Shown here: positions 29,347-44,845 of the stretch, one piece after another
Position numbering within the stretch: position 1 is the stretch's first letter
Layout of the letters: the number at the start of each line of letters is the position of its first letter
Assembly (NCBI GenBank): GCA_030680175.1
Contig: JAUXWO010000036.1
Span: 1 to 64,000 of the forward strand
Source: Vicinamibacterales bacterium
GTDB lineage: Bacteria > Acidobacteriota > Vicinamibacteria > Vicinamibacterales > UBA2999
DNA length: 64,000 bases
Direction: 5' to 3'
Notes under the pieces: generated by a model
Databases searched by the model: none
Seen by the model: only the letters and a program-made list of their open reading frames with translations
What the model was told of the DNA's origin: nothing
Position numbers and translations under genes: made by a program

Positions 29347-31560
29347 TCACGCCTGGATGTCGATCCCCACGCCACCCTCGACGACCTCGCCGACGATGCA
29401 TGCCTCGGTGTAGCCGATCGCGTGGAGTTCGGCCACGAGCGCGGCCGCCTCGGCCGGCGCCACGCCAATCAGCAACCCGCCGCACGTCTGCGGATCGAAG
29501 AGGGCCTGGACGCGCGGATCGGCGAGGGGCACCCCCAGTGCCAGCGGCCCCGTCCGCTCCTGGTTCGCGGGGGCCAGCGTGCTGGCCACACCCGCGGCGA
29601 TGAGCTCGGCCACACCCGGCAACAGCGGGATGGACGACGCGGTGAGCCGTGCGGCCAGGCCGCTCGCCTCGAGCATCTCGCGCAGATGGCCGCCGAGGCC
29701 GAAGCCCGTGACGTCGGTCAGCCCCGACACGTCGAATCGGTCGAGACACTGCGCGGCGGGTCCGTTGCTCGCCAGCATCGACGCGGTCAGCGCCGTGAAC
29801 CACGATGCGCGACACGCCGCACGCATGTGCCCGGCCAGCAGGACGCCGGCGCCGAGCGGCTTGGTCAGCACCAGCGCATCGCCGGCGCGCAGCCGCCCCT
29901 TCGTCCGCGGCGGCTCCGTCGTCTGCGACCCGAGCAGCGTGAAGCCGACGGTGAGCTGCGGGCCCTCGATCGTGTGCCCGCCAACGAGCGTCGCGCCCAT
30001 CTGGCGCAGCTCGCGGAGGCTGCCGGCCAACAGCTGGAACAGGAGTTCCTCCTGCTGCCGCTCGGAGCCGACGGGCAACGTCACCATGGCGAGCGCGGCG
30101 AACGGGGTCGCGCCGATGGCGAACACGTCGCTGGCGGCGTTGAGCGCCGCCATCCGGCCAACCACGTAGGGGTCGTCGAAGGGCGCGGAGAAGAAGTCCA
30201 CCGTCACCGTCAGCGGCCGTCCCCCCGGCGGCACCACCACCGCCGCGTCATCCGCCGCGTCGAGCCCGACCCGCACGTGCTCGCTCGACGGGATCTCGAG
30301 CCGCGCCAGCGCACGCGAGAGCACCCCCGCGCCGACCTTGCCGCCGCACCCCATGCAGCGCATCGCCTCGGCGGATCCGCGGCCATCGGCGGGCGCGGCC
30401 ATCGCCATGGGCGCGTAGCCCTGGTACTTCGCCATGAACGGCGCGTCGATGGCATCCTTCAGCCGCCAGGCCCAGCGCCCCTCGAATGACAGGCCCTTCC
30501 ATTCCCCGATGGCGCGGCCATCGCCCGTGTTCAGGAGCTTCAGGAACCCGCGCTGCGGCACATAGCGCTGCAAGGGCCGCTCCGCGAGGAGGCGGGCGAC
30601 GTTCTCGCGCAGCACCGGCGCCTGGCGCACGGCATACACCCCCGCCTTCGGCAGCGGCACGCCGTCGATCGAACCCGTGTCGCCGACGACGAAGATCGGC
30701 GCACCGGTCGTCACCTGCAGTGTATCCGCGGTGCGAATGAAGCCACGGGCGTCGACTGGCAGTCCGAGCGCGGCCACGAGCGGCGGCGGCGCGGCGCCCG
30801 TCGCCCAGATGATCACATCCGCTTCGGTCTCAGGCGCGCTCCCGTCGTCGAGCGTGAGACGTCCGCCATCGACATGCACGACGCGACGGCCCGTGATGAC
30901 GCGGATACCGCGCCGCTCGGCCGCTCGCGCGACGCGCCGCGCCGTCCGCGCGAGGCTCCCCGGCACCAGCCGGTCGTCGCCCGTGATGAGCGTCACGTCA
31001 CACCGGCCCTCCGGGTCGACGAGCCGGACCCGCGCCTGCAGGCAGAGCGCCACTTCGATGCCGCCTGCGCCGCCGCCGACGACCACGACCTTCAGCCGCT
31101 CGCCCGTCGTGACCGCCGCGCGCGCGCGCATCTGCCCATCGAGCCGCGCCAGCATCGTCTGCATCGGCTTGATGGCGACGAGCCGCGAGGCATCGCCCAC
31201 GGTCACGCCGTCGAAGGCCGGAACGGAGCCGAGGCCGATCGACAGCACGTCGAACCCGATCGGCGCACGGTCAGCGAAGTCCAGCCGCCGCGCCTCGGGA
31301 TCCAGCCGCGTGACCTCGCCGACGATCAGGCGCGCGCCCGCCGCGGCGCACAGCCGCACGAGATCGATCTCCATGCGCTCCGGCGCGTACTGGCCGGACA
31401 GCACACCCGGCAGCATGCCCGAGTAGGTGACGACGGGGTGGTTGGAGACGCAGGTCAGGCGGACCTCCGGCAGCGGCTGCATCTTCCACATGCGCAGGAG
31501 GTGGGCGTTCGTGTGGCCGACGCCGAGCAGGACGAGGTCGCGACGCGGAAGAGGAGTCAT
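29347..31560 (-). CDS. selD: SelD selenophosphate synthetase fused to an FAD-NAD(P) oxidoreductase
   Basis: 737 aa. Residues 1-375 are a pyridine-nucleotide-disulfide/NDH-2-like domain (LVLLGVGHTNAHLLRMW; NAD site VVVVGGGAGGIEVAL; FVVGDTGS). Residues about 395-737 are SelD, which makes selenophosphate from selenide and ATP. The catalytic loop is MRCMGCGGKVG, with Cys and Lys at the E. coli C17 and K20 positions. Also visible are VTVDFFSAPFDDPYVVGRMA, LNAASDVFAIG, LVGGHTIEGPQ and DVTGFGLGGHL. This fusion is known in cyanobacteria and others; the flavin domain may supply reduced selenium. It supports selenocysteine or selenouridine use in this organism, see the UGA-containing gene at 43802-44845. 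selA and selB are not in the window. Confidence 0.93.
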   Translation of the reverse strand: MTPLPRRDLVLLGVGHTNAHLLRMWKMQPLPEVRLTCVSNHPVVTYSGMLPGVLSGQYAPERMEIDLVRLCAAAGARLIVGEVTRLDPEARRLDFADRAPIGFDVLSIGLGSVPAFDGVTVGDASRLVAIKPMQTMLARLDGQMRARAAVTTGERLKVVVVGGGAGGIEVALCLQARVRLVDPEGRCDVTLITGDDRLVPGSLARTARRVARAAERRGIRVITGRRVVHVDGGRLTLDDGSAPETEADVIIWATGAAPPPLVAALGLPVDARGFIRTADTLQVTTGAPIFVVGDTGSIDGVPLPKAGVYAVRQAPVLRENVARLLAERPLQRYVPQRGFLKLLNTGDGRAIGEWKGLSFEGRWAWRLKDAIDAPFMAKYQGYAPMAMAAPADGRGSAEAMRCMGCGGKVGAGVLSRALARLEIPSSEHVRVGLDAADDAAVVVPPGGRPLTVTVDFFSAPFDDPYVVGRMAALNAASDVFAIGATPFAALAMVTLPVGSERQQEELLFQLLAGSLRELRQMGATLVGGHTIEGPQLTVGFTLLGSQTTEPPRTKGRLRAGDALVLTKPLGAGVLLAGHMRAACRASWFTALTASMLASNGPAAQCLDRFDVSGLTDVTGFGLGGHLREMLEASGLAARLTASSIPLLPGVAELIAAGVASTLAPANQERTGPLALGVPLADPRVQALFDPQTCGGLLIGVAPAEAAALVAELHAIGYTEACIVGEVVEGGVGIDIQA

Positions 31561-40450: not shown

Positions 40451-41530
40451 TCACCGCACCACACCCTCGCGGGCCGTGGGCGCCGGGAACCAGTGCTTCG
40501 TGCGCACGCAGACGGCGCAGACCGACAGCATCACCGGCACCTCGATGAGCACGCCCACGACGGTCGCCAGCGCCGCGCCCGACTCGGGACCGAAGAGCGC
40601 AATCGCCGTCGCCACGGCCAGCTCGAAGAAGTTGCTCGCGCCGATGAGCGCGCCAGGCGCGGCGACGGAGTACTCGACCCCGAACAGCCGCATCAGACCG
40701 TACGTCAGCGACGAGTTGAAGTAGACCTGAATCAGGATCGGCACGGCGATGAGCGCCACGTGCAGGGTCTTGCTCGTCAGGTTGTCGGCCTGGAAGGCGA
40801 AGATCAGGACGAGCGTGGCCAGCAGCGCCATCATGCTCACCGGCGCGAAGCGCGGCAGCAGCTCCTGTTCGAACCACACTTCGCCCCTTGACCGAATCAG
40901 CCACGTCCGGAGCAGCAACCCGGCCGTCAGCGGCACGACGATGAAGACGAGCACGGAGTAGAGGAGCACCTCGAACGGCACCTCGAGCGAGGAGGCGCCC
41001 GCGACCAGGTAGCGGACGATCGGCGCGAACAGCACGAGCATGATCAGGTCGTTCACCGAGACCTGGACGAGCGTGTAGGCGGGGTCGCCGTCGGAGAGGT
41101 AGCTCCACACGAACACCATCGCCGTACACGGCGCCGCCGCGAGGATGATGAGGCCCGCGATGTACTGGTCGGCATCGTCCGGTCCGATCCACGGGCTGAA
41201 CACGATGCGGAAGAAGAACCACGCGATGAGCGCCATCGAGAACGGCTTCACCAGCCAGTTCACGAACATCGTGACGAAGAGCCCCCGCGGGCGGCGGCCC
41301 ACGTTGCGGATCGCCCCGAAGTCGACCTTCATCATCATCGGCGTGATCATCAGCCAGATGAGGATGGCGATCGGCACGTTGATCTGGCTGCCCTCGCCGA
41401 ACTCCATCCCGCGCAGGCCGGCCATGAACCCAGGCGCCGTCTTGCCGATGACGACACCGAGCACCATGCACAACCCGACCCAGAGACTCAGGTACCGTTC
41501 GAAGACACTTAGGCGCTTTGGCTCAGACAT
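40451..41530 (-). CDS. acr3: Acr3 arsenite efflux permease
   Basis: 359 aa with ten predicted membrane segments. Acr3 hallmarks: ILIWLMITPMMMKVDFGAI, VNWLVKPFSMALIAW, the essential cysteine in AAPCTAMVFVWSYL, VNDLIMLVLFAPIVR and ASNFFELAVATAIALFG. Extrudes As(III) (and Sb(III) in some) by proton exchange. Last gene of the ars operon; a 180-bp spacer with GATCT-type repeats separates it from arsR. Confidence 0.93.
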   Translation of the reverse strand: MSEPKRLSVFERYLSLWVGLCMVLGVVIGKTAPGFMAGLRGMEFGEGSQINVPIAILIWLMITPMMMKVDFGAIRNVGRRPRGLFVTMFVNWLVKPFSMALIAWFFFRIVFSPWIGPDDADQYIAGLIILAAAPCTAMVFVWSYLSDGDPAYTLVQVSVNDLIMLVLFAPIVRYLVAGASSLEVPFEVLLYSVLVFIVVPLTAGLLLRTWLIRSRGEVWFEQELLPRFAPVSMMALLATLVLIFAFQADNLTSKTLHVALIAVPILIQVYFNSSLTYGLMRLFGVEYSVAAPGALIGASNFFELAVATAIALFGPESGAALATVVGVLIEVPVMLSVCAVCVRTKHWFPAPTAREGVVR

Positions 41531-41561
41531 AAATACTTGGATGGATGGAGGCCAAAGATGA

Positions 41562-41702
41562 CATCTTGCGATCTCGTGATGTGGTGACGTGGTGATCGGA
41601 TGCTTGAGGTTCCGATGTTCCTGGCTTGCGCTGGCAATGTATCGGCTGATCTGCTGATCTGGTGATCTGTGATCTGTGATCTGTGATCTGACGATCTGCG
41701 GC
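41562..41702. repeat. GATCT-type degenerate repeats upstream of acr3
   Basis: GATCTCGTGATGTGGTGACG, then a cleaner array of CTGATCTG and GTGATCT units (four consecutive TGATCTG near 41657-41690). The same unit family as the tract inside dnaE2 at 10801-10942. It fills the arsR-acr3 spacer. Confidence 0.8.
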
Positions 41703-41710
41703 CCGCGTCA

Positions 41711-42055
41711 TCACACGGCGTCCAGCAGCCCCTTGAACCGTCTGAGGGCCTCGGGAACGATGCAGTAGCCCACGCGGGGGCCACCCCTGGACTGCACGAG
41801 GCCGGCCGCCCGGAGGATCCGCAGGTGCTCGGACACCGTGGACTGCGCCAGCGGCAGTTCGTCCACGATCTGGCAGCATTGGCGGGCGTCCTTGCGCGCG
41901 AGCATGCGGAGGATCTGCACCCGCACCGGGTGCGCGATGGCCTTCGCGAAGGCGGCCAGTTGCTCGTCGGCCTCCGGGCCTGACGGCAGCAGCACGCCGG
42001 GACGGCCCTCCTCGGGCAGGCAGCAGGAATCCTGAAGGGTCTTCTGCTTACTCAT
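41711..42055 (-). CDS. arsR: ArsR-family arsenic-responsive repressor
   Basis: 114 aa winged-helix repressor (HPVRVQILRMLAR, LPLAQSTVSEHLRILRAAGL, GYCIVPEAL). Cysteine pairs at C11-C12 near the N-terminus and C60-C61 before the recognition helix are reminiscent of the Corynebacterium ArsR As(III) site (C15, C16, C55), not the E. coli CVC-x2-C site. Releases DNA on As(III) binding. It probably acts at the 43679-43703 palindrome in front of the operon. Six bp after the thioredoxin-like gene. Confidence 0.92.
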   Translation of the reverse strand: MSKQKTLQDSCCLPEEGRPGVLLPSGPEADEQLAAFAKAIAHPVRVQILRMLARKDARQCCQIVDELPLAQSTVSEHLRILRAAGLVQSRGGPRVGYCIVPEALRRFKGLLDAV

Positions 42056-42061
42056 GTCTTG

Positions 42062-42295
42062 TTACGCCAGCAGCGCCTTGATGGCGTCGACCGTCGGTAC
42101 CCGCCCCGACACCTTGACCTCGCCGTCCACGACGAGCGCGGGCGTGACCATCACGCCGGAAGCGACGATCGCGTCGAGGTCCGTGACCTTCTCCACCCGG
42201 TACTCGAGTCCGAGCGCCTTCGCCGCTTCCTCGGCGCGTTCCGTCAGCAGGTGGCACTTCGAGCAGCCCATCCCGAGAATCTGCAGCGTCTTCAT
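42062..42295 (-). CDS. Small thioredoxin-fold protein (MTH895/TM0996 type)
   Basis: 77 aa from the ATG at 42295, with GGAGGAG six bases upstream. The redox motif is CSKC (GMGCSKCHLL) at the N-terminal end of the first helix, followed by VMVTPALVVDGEVKVSGRVP, which includes the cis-Pro loop. These mini-thioredoxins accompany COG0701 permeases in arsenic and metal operons and may pass or reduce metalloid substrates. Part of the ars operon. Confidence 0.88.
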   Translation of the reverse strand: MKTLQILGMGCSKCHLLTERAEEAAKALGLEYRVEKVTDLDAIVASGVMVTPALVVDGEVKVSGRVPTVDAIKALLA

Positions 42296-42320
42296 GGGTA
42301 TCTCCTCCACGGTCATGCGA

Positions 42321-43619
<1,299 letters not shown>

Positions 43620-43801: not shown

Positions 43802-44845
43802 TCACCGCACAAGCGGCCGGACGTCGAGGGTCCAGGAGAGGGGGACGCGCGTCGGCATGTAGCACACCTCGTCGTCGCACGCCTGGTACTGCAGGCGTCC
43901 GGTGAGCGTCACCGTCTTGAGGGCGGCGAGTTGCTTCTGGGCGGCGGGGGTGGCCGCGATCGTCACGTCCTGCACCAGCCGGAACGGCTTGATGTACACC
44001 TCGACCCGCTCGTCGAGCGGCTTGAAGTGGTAGATCTCCGACGGCGGATACGTCACCGGGTGCGCCGTCAGCCACGGCTGCGGATCGAACTCAATCGACA
44101 CGACCTGGTAGGTGTGCTTCCCCGGCGCGTAGACGTGCATCCCGGCGCCCGGCGTCACCTCGAAGACGATCGAGAACCGGCTGCCCGGCGCGATCACCTC
44201 GTCGGTGGCCCCCGCCGTCACGCTGAGGTGCGGCGTGGACCGCGTCACCGCCGGCCCGCTCCCGACGCTCGCGCTCGTGCGCGCCAGGATGCTCGCCACG
44301 GTGTTGCGCTCCTGGTACGCGGCCTCGAAGAAGCGCGACTTCACGCGCCCGTCGCGCCCGAGGATGAAGGTGCCGGGATGCGGAATGCCGTACGCACGGC
44401 TGTCGGCGGCGACGGTGGCGTTCAGCAGCCCGTACCGCTTGATGATGGCGGACCCCGGGTCCGCGATCAGCGGATAGGTGATGCCCCGCTCCTTCGTGAA
44501 GCGCTGCAGCACCTCCGGCGCGTCATACGTGATGACCGCGAGGCCGAGCCCCTGGGCTTCGAGTTCCTTGTGACGGCGTTGCAGCTCCACGAGCTGCGTC
44601 TTGCAGTACGGTCACCAGTCGGCGGAGCGGTTGAAGACGAGCATCAACCCCTCGCGTCCCATGAGCGACTGCAGCGTCTGCGTGCGGCCGCGTTGATCGG
44701 TCCCACTGAAGTCAGGCACCCGCGCGCCGACCTGCGGCCCGATCTTCTCCACGTCCACGGGCGTCTGCCGGGCCAGCGCGGGCCCACCGCCGGGGCCGAG
44801 GGCCCAGAGCAGCAGGCCCATGATCCACCCAGTGCGCATTCTCAT
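43802..44845 (-). CDS. Selenoprotein: peroxiredoxin-like protein with U-x-x-C motif and DsbD-N-like domain
   Basis: Read as one gene through an in-frame TGA (44614-44612): 77 residues, U78, then 269 residues, 347 aa in all. The signal peptide is GLLLWALGPGGGPALA. An AhpC/TSA-type redoxin domain follows (GARVPDFSGTDQRGRTQTLQ, LMLVFNRSADW), then U-P-Y-C-KTQLVELQ, where relatives have C-P-Y-C. Both sides of the TGA match the same fold without gap or overlap. The redoxin part continues ITYDAPEVLQRF, GTFILGRDGRV. The C-terminal domain (residues about 225-345) resembles the N-terminal domain of DsbD with CDDEVCYMPT. A hairpin at 44581-44597 fits a bacterial SECIS. Probably a periplasmic peroxidase or disulfide reductase. 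The alternative is a nonsense mutation or sequencing error. Confidence 0.85.
44581..44597 (-). promoter_or_regulatory. Candidate bSECIS hairpin
   Basis: GCAGCTC-GTG-GAGCTGC: a perfect 7-bp stem with a GTG loop, starting 14 nt after the UGA codon so that the loop begins 21 nt downstream. It fits the known bacterial SECIS pattern of an apical loop 16-37 nt after UGA with G in one of the first two loop positions. Confidence 0.75.

Follow-up and report, generated by a model that had tools for sequence, protein, structure and literature searches.

Does a TGA within a redoxin gene of an Acidobacteriota bacterium end translation or encode selenocysteine (Sec), and, in the latter case, what kind of enzyme would result? 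The question is raised by a single gene, here called selenoredoxin, in a stretch of 64,000 nucleotides that was analysed as a whole and is referred to as the window. The positions needed at the outset are the following.

43802..44845, minus strand: selenoredoxin gene with its stop codon, coding for 347 residues if the TGA at codon 78 is taken as Sec
44612..44614, minus strand: in-frame TGA, Sec78, residue 1 of the UxxC motif and the codon column read in relatives
44603..44605, minus strand: Cys81 codon, residue 2 of the UxxC motif, aligned with C50 of the Aeropyrum pernix peroxiredoxin (Prx)

The gene starts with an ATG at 44845 and closes with another TGA at 43804-43802, and a listing of open reading frames under translation table 11 splits it at the internal TGA. 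The two open frames abutting at 44614-44612 had been taken for parts of one peroxiredoxin-like domain; indeed, when Cys was put in the place of Sec, a single AhpC-TSA match in Pfam (residues 39-170, 2.9e-27) extended from one frame into the other, unbroken across residue 78. The TGA occupies the first CxxC position in the motif SADW-U-PYC. The raw pattern of TGA, open frames and Cys proves little in itself, because a mechanical scan of the window found 22 cases of a TGA that lies between open frames and has a Cys at a distance of three codons on one side or the other (the selenoredoxin site counted), and because the folding energy of the window's hairpin sequence alone was no better than that of its shuffles (z -0.19). 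It is the homology spanning the TGA, together with the comparative data described below, that raises the site far above chance.

At the Sec78 column, we read 100 gene copies drawn from the order and phylum of the host: 85 have TGA, 15 have Cys (TGC/TGT), and none has another codon. The original prediction had placed the TGA at the first Cys of a redox motif and proposed looking for Cys in homologues, and Cys is indeed the sole alternative to TGA among these copies. They comprise 71 copies from the order (63 TGA, 4 TGC, and 4 TGT), a further 20 from the order (17 TGA and 3 TGC), and nine more distant ones from the phylum with five TGA and four Cys, so that TGA copies are also found outside the host's order. 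The 100 copies are the stronger matches fetched rather than every match. From the order, 162 genomes were searched with the protein, 101 of them contained matches at 1e-30 or better, and the weaker matches of this search are not among the copies read. A TGA copy was read in at least 68 of the 162, including genome G013, in which a TGA copy and a Cys copy occur together and which is classed as a TGA genome. In a collection of named genomes, in which the nearest relatives are Acidobacteria MAGs, 52 of 53 loci cover the site, with Cys in 49 and TGA in three, the latter apparently representing genomes already in the 100-copy count. Twenty short copies (L047-L066), mainly from Proteobacteria, have Cys at the site, and a C-terminal CxxxxC motif was not detected in them. 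A tree of 90 proteins, which omits these short copies, L068, L070-L075, duplicates, and proteins shorter than 270 residues, needs at least five changes between Sec and Cys, three of which are forced by well-supported branches. In this tree, an acidobacterial-type Cys redoxin on a MAG contig labelled Bifidobacterium breve (L044) groups with Acidobacteria, and that bin is probably mislabelled or contaminated.

Insertion of Sec requires dedicated machinery, and selA, selB, and selC had been proposed as a check. The host genome (4.98 Mb in 143 contigs, with a listed completeness of 100%) has all of them, namely selA (517 bits), selB (294 bits, or 321 with a second piece), and, for selC, one tRNA-Sec of 64.8 bits, for which the ARAGORN call is SeC(tca), together with SelD (273 bits), the sole match above the selD cut-off. 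The window itself contains an open reading frame with a SelD domain.

29347..31560, minus strand: fusion of a pyridine nucleotide-disulfide oxidoreductase with SelD, containing a CMGC motif, SelD domain at 29449-30366

A selD had been claimed 13 kb away, and this 737-residue protein is encoded at a distance of 12.2-13.4 kb. It scores 271 bits against the selD family, above the cut-off, and 461.6 bits against TIGR04369 ("fusion_not_SelD"), under the cut-off of 700. Judged from these scores, the fusion is likely to be SelD-active and thus the selenophosphate source; the activity is likely rather than certain because TIGR04369 also scores, if below its cut-off. Fusions of Ndh and SelD with a CxxC motif have been described by Zhang and Gladyshev in 2008 (PMC2398784).

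Across the order (78 genomes in total), selA and/or tRNA-Sec was found in 65 of the 68 genomes that carry a TGA copy and in 2 of the 10 that carry only Cys copies; for selA alone, the figures are 60 of 68 and 2 of 10, and both selA and tRNA-Sec were found in 54 of the 68. The Fisher p value of 3e-7 treats the genomes as unrelated, and when relatedness is taken into account the association does not reach significance, because there are only two to three phylogenetically independent contrasts. The TGA genomes with no match to selA or tRNA-Sec are G005, G131, and G141 (90, 85, and 74% complete, respectively), and the Cys-only genomes with selA are G099 and G106. Beyond the order, where only selA was searched for, it was found in three of five TGA genomes and two of four Cys genomes; G468, which is 97% complete, has a TGA copy and yet gave no selA match. 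tRNA-Sec was counted here at 56 bits or more, Rfam's own cut-off being 47, and this limit was tested with ARAGORN after the first count, on 15 matches: the three above 56 bits were all called tRNA-SeC, and the 12 of approximately 50-52 bits, from 12 genomes, were tRNA-Ser(tga) in 11 cases and an uncalled match at a contig edge in the other. The Rfam cut-off would not separate the two groups, since the Cys-only genomes G014, G093, G098, and G105 have a weaker match, that of G105 being outside the ARAGORN-tested set.

A second TGA-bearing redoxin paralogue is present on the same contig, about 36 kb away (C94:80452-81492, the longer interval C94:80440-81621 being L106:2441-3622, minus strand). 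In G109, G094, and G110 (loci L143, L144, and L145), a paralogue lies directly beside selC and selA, with the tRNA-Sec gene between the paralogue and selA; in G112, a paralogue adjoins selA, and selC is several kb off. The paralogue on the host contig is also about 1.2 kb from a gene for the mercuric transport protein MerT (L106:4809-5204, plus strand).

A hairpin of the bacterial SECIS type had been predicted just downstream of the TGA.

44581..44597, minus strand: bacterial SECIS hairpin with a 7-bp stem and a GUG loop, 14 nt after the UGA, pairing conserved

The sequence is GCAGCTC-GTG-GAGCTGC, and its loop begins 21 nt after the TGA; a stem-loop thus follows the UGA at a short distance and has a G in its small apical loop, as a bacterial SECIS element should. 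The predicted stem, loop, and spacing were all confirmed, and the pairing was found to be conserved in relatives; the stability of the single sequence, which is like that of its shuffles, gave the prediction no support. A scan of the window with Rfam returned nothing above the gathering scores, and our assignment is independent of Rfam. Among distinct 40-nt stretches, the 58 with TGA form seven pairs in 44 and six in 14, versus seven pairs in one, six in five, and five or fewer in 48 of the 54 with Cys. An earlier count gave seven pairs in 56 and six in five of 61 distinct TGA rows, versus seven in none and six in five of 46 Cys rows; that count omits duplicates, L070-L075, and rows whose context is shorter than 120 nt (L133 alone), and the recount includes L070-L074. 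Six pairs alone therefore do not separate the TGA and Cys groups, given that one Cys copy has seven and five have six.

Among the TGA sequences, four of the seven pairs are invariant, and both sides have changed at the other three (G-C to C-G in four sequences, G-C to A-U in three, and C-G to G-C in one, these being counts of sequences and not of independent events). When the partner was shifted by 1-3 nt, pairing fell from 97% to 12-48% (53 sequences). The codons within the hairpin are, furthermore, nearly frozen: Leu85 is CTC at a frequency of 0.93 and Leu88 is CTG at 1.00, versus a mean of 0.55 in four other conserved Leu columns. The hairpin codons are also more constant than other conserved Val columns, although two Gln columns outside the hairpin come close to this constancy. 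The only Cys copy to form the complete 7-bp hairpin (L155, TGC) belongs to genome G093, which has no selA match and a weak tRNA match that is a tRNA-Ser, and this hairpin is apparently the relic of a recent change from Sec to Cys. We also noticed a more distant Sec-redoxin subfamily (L147-L152, 31-33% identity) with the motif SAVWUPYC and the same hairpin minus the closing pair.

The TGA in this redox-enzyme gene of an Acidobacteriota host is, therefore, very probably read as Sec. The original interpretation as a selenoprotein is supported, and neither of the two refuting tests that were run went against it.

What such a protein would do is to be sought in its domains.

44768..44845, minus strand: probable export signal, residues 1 to about 26, with the hydrophobic stretch GWIMGLLLWALG, boundary set by eye
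44267..44740, minus strand: peroxiredoxin-like (thioredoxin-fold) domain, residues 36-193, from Pfam, the structural model, and matches to AhpE, Bcp, and ResA
43805..44257, minus strand: DsbD-alpha/ScsB-like domain, residues 197-347, from Pfam DsbD_N, the structural model, and fold matches
43862..43879, minus strand: Cys323 and Cys328 (CDDEVC), a candidate relay pair, conserved in aligned proteins

The N-terminal region has a hydropathy of 1.7 over 12 residues, from which selenoredoxin is probably exported. In an AlphaFold model with Cys for Sec (mean pLDDT 93.4), the N-terminal domain resembles peroxiredoxins of the Bcp/AhpE kind, as with 5epf (Z 19.3, rmsd 2.6, 151 residues aligned). In the alignment with A. 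pernix Prx, of which the matched entries include C50S variants, C81 falls on C50, the peroxidatic Cys, and U78 falls on Thr47. The classical peroxiredoxin motif is PxxxT/SxxC; when PADFTPVC of 5xbs is set against SADWUPYC, Ser74 stands in the place of Pro and U78 in that of Thr, and Cys alone is kept. The Pro and Thr/Ser of the classical motif are thus lacking in selenoredoxin, and a peroxidase mechanism of the classical kind is hence not assured. Given the positions of C81 and U78, the motif is of the UxxC thiol-oxidoreductase type and not TxxU. Sec is at the first UxxC position of a PF00578 domain, and the Cys81 column is Cys in all 43 aligned proteins. No NCBIfam family was above its cut-off for selenoredoxin; the SelL-related redox protein family NF040769 gave 57.3 bits against a curated cut-off of 120.

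The same alignment opens a reading in which selenoredoxin is a selenoprotein whose UxxC domain is a thiol-disulfide reductase like TlpA, ResA, or CcmG, acting on apocytochrome or protein disulfides and not as a peroxidase. The UxxC motif is as in thioredoxin-like reductases, ResA chains match the domain both by profile and by fold, and U78 takes the Prx Thr position instead of that of the peroxidatic Cys; the best matches by fold and Pfam are, on the other hand, peroxiredoxins (AhpE, Bcp, and AhpC-TSA). We regard this reductase as a serious possibility, if one somewhat short of even.

A DsbD-N-like domain at the C terminus had also been foreseen, and it is borne out by a Pfam DsbD_N match above the cut-off (residues 220-332, 2.3e-7) and by the fold. 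Modelled alone (pLDDT 95.6), this domain matches ScsB 6c29 with a Z of 12.7 (rmsd 2.4, 123 residues aligned) and DsbD-alpha crystal structures with a Z of 10.7-11.9 (rmsd 2.4-3.0, 103-110 residues aligned), while one solution structure scores 9.8 and unrelated domains 9.0 and less. The C323-x4-C328 pair is found in all 38 aligned proteins having the domain; five further proteins are without the domain. Selenoredoxin thus shares with the N-terminal domain of DsbD and ScsB the fold, the Pfam family DsbD_N, and a Cys pair, but here the domain comes after a redoxin domain on the same polypeptide. A DsbD_TM membrane domain was not detected in this chain by Pfam, so that it is not a whole DsbD or ScsB; one DsbD_TM protein of the size of CcdA is encoded in the genome as a separate chain.

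Taken together, we consider it probable that selenoredoxin is a selenoprotein with Sec78 inserted by means of SelB and the hairpin, that it is exported, and that its Prx-like UxxC module is recharged by its DsbD-alpha/ScsB-like module. SelB bound to the hairpin just past the UGA would deliver Sec-tRNA, so that residue 78 would become Sec and translation would continue to residue 347. In the Prx-like domain, U78 would attack a peroxide or a disulfide, and C81 would resolve the product to a selenenyl sulfide. The C323-C328 pair would most likely take electrons from the inner membrane, for which the CcdA-sized DsbD_TM protein is a candidate conduit, and would then re-reduce the Prx-like module. 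The likely role is accordingly that of a putative reductase of peroxides or disulfides in the envelope, which would be recharged by the relay domain of the same protein; the specific idea of a self-recharging selenoenzyme, in which the C323-C328 pair hands electrons to the U78-C81 selenenyl sulfide within one chain, is put forward tentatively. A precedent is the envelope peroxide pathway ScsB-TlpA-PprX of Caulobacter (Cho et al. 2012, as cited in PMC5403849), where an electron relay of the envelope likewise has a peroxiredoxin-type protein as its last member; it shows that relays of this kind can feed a peroxiredoxin. The Caulobacter components are separate proteins, whereas selenoredoxin joins a relay-like domain to a Sec-bearing redoxin.

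No function can be drawn from the arsenic-type operon just downstream (40451-43619, minus strand), which encodes an ACR3 efflux pump, an ArsR regulator, a Thioredoxin_3 protein, and an ArsP_1 permease, because it was not found beside the relatives examined. When seven neighbour proteins were searched by tblastn against loci L023-L146, ArsP adjoined only the window's own copy, a weak negative as many flanks are 1.5 kb or none; a functional link to the operon was dropped on this ground. The same search found genes for MerA-like oxidoreductases or CMD near Cys homologues in four loci.

Other readings of the TGA itself fare less well. UGA without Sec-tRNA terminates translation, and the codon might then be a selenium-controlled switch, with a 77-residue fragment alone being made when selenium is absent and regulation being what matters. 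Termination of this kind is, however, expected for any selenoprotein, and the fragment would stop just before the active-site pair and lack most of the domain, with nothing to suggest a function of its own; we therefore consider a switch improbable. Even less credible is decoding of UGA as Trp, Gly, or Cys, whether through suppression or through an altered genetic code: the identity of the inserted residue does not follow from a read-through frame by itself, but the Sec machinery is complete, homologues offer Cys as the sole alternative, and TGA is an ordinary stop in 12 of the 17 gene-like open reading frames checked in the window, including the end of selenoredoxin itself. That the TGA is a sequencing error or the stop of a pseudogene, as might occur in relatives that are mostly metagenome-assembled genomes, was ruled out as exceedingly unlikely, because dozens of separate genomes have this TGA in the identical column and the protein is conserved after it.

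With Sec at position 78 as our preferred reading, selenoredoxin is not new as a type, since UxxC redoxin selenoproteins are already in print. A "redoxin family protein" (PF08534) is listed as a UxxC selenoprotein in Table 1 of PMC13188914 (2026) and appears also in PMC9312934. By its table rows, which give the accessions HEU0032618.1 and MBA3499694.1 and mention no DsbD-alpha fusion, it shares with selenoredoxin the redoxin domain, a single Sec, and UxxC, and the two quite possibly belong to the same family. PMC5029168, one of two sources cited for the redoxin row, does not mention redoxin or Acidobacteria in its main text. UxxC Prx-like/redoxin selenoproteins were reported in the Sargasso and GOS surveys of 2005 and 2008 (PMC1088965 and PMC2398784), where Prx-like 1 and 3 have pfam00578/pfam08534 with UxxC and Prx-like 3 is fused to a Cys-bearing domain; this domain (Unknown_3) is, however, described there with three conserved Cys and a CxxC, in place of the CxxxxC in the DsbD-alpha-like domain of selenoredoxin. 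TsoB (NF045694, PMC13188914) is also a selenoprotein, described as like a rhodanese/DsbD fusion, but differs by its table row in having a UxxxxU motif, two Sec residues, and a rhodanese domain. A table row of PMC12013277 gives three known selenoprotein genes for a genome of an acidobacterium. In our literature search, with subscription papers mostly outside its coverage, no paper was found on a fusion of a Sec-redoxin with DsbD-alpha or devoted to acidobacterial selenoproteins. The fusion with DsbD-alpha is the unusual part and may be a new variant.

In conclusion, a widespread and conserved selenoprotein is documented in an acidobacterial order, and its Sec and Cys orthologues, among them a Cys copy in which the hairpin persists, form a clean set for studying the loss of Sec. 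The protein joins Sec chemistry to a domain of the envelope-relay type in a fusion that can be tested. If the tentative self-recharging mechanism is true, one polypeptide would do the work that is shared in Caulobacter by the relay of ScsB, TlpA, and a periplasmic peroxiredoxin, and a family of self-recharging selenoenzymes, linked to selA and selC in some genomes, would be common in this one order of Acidobacteriota.
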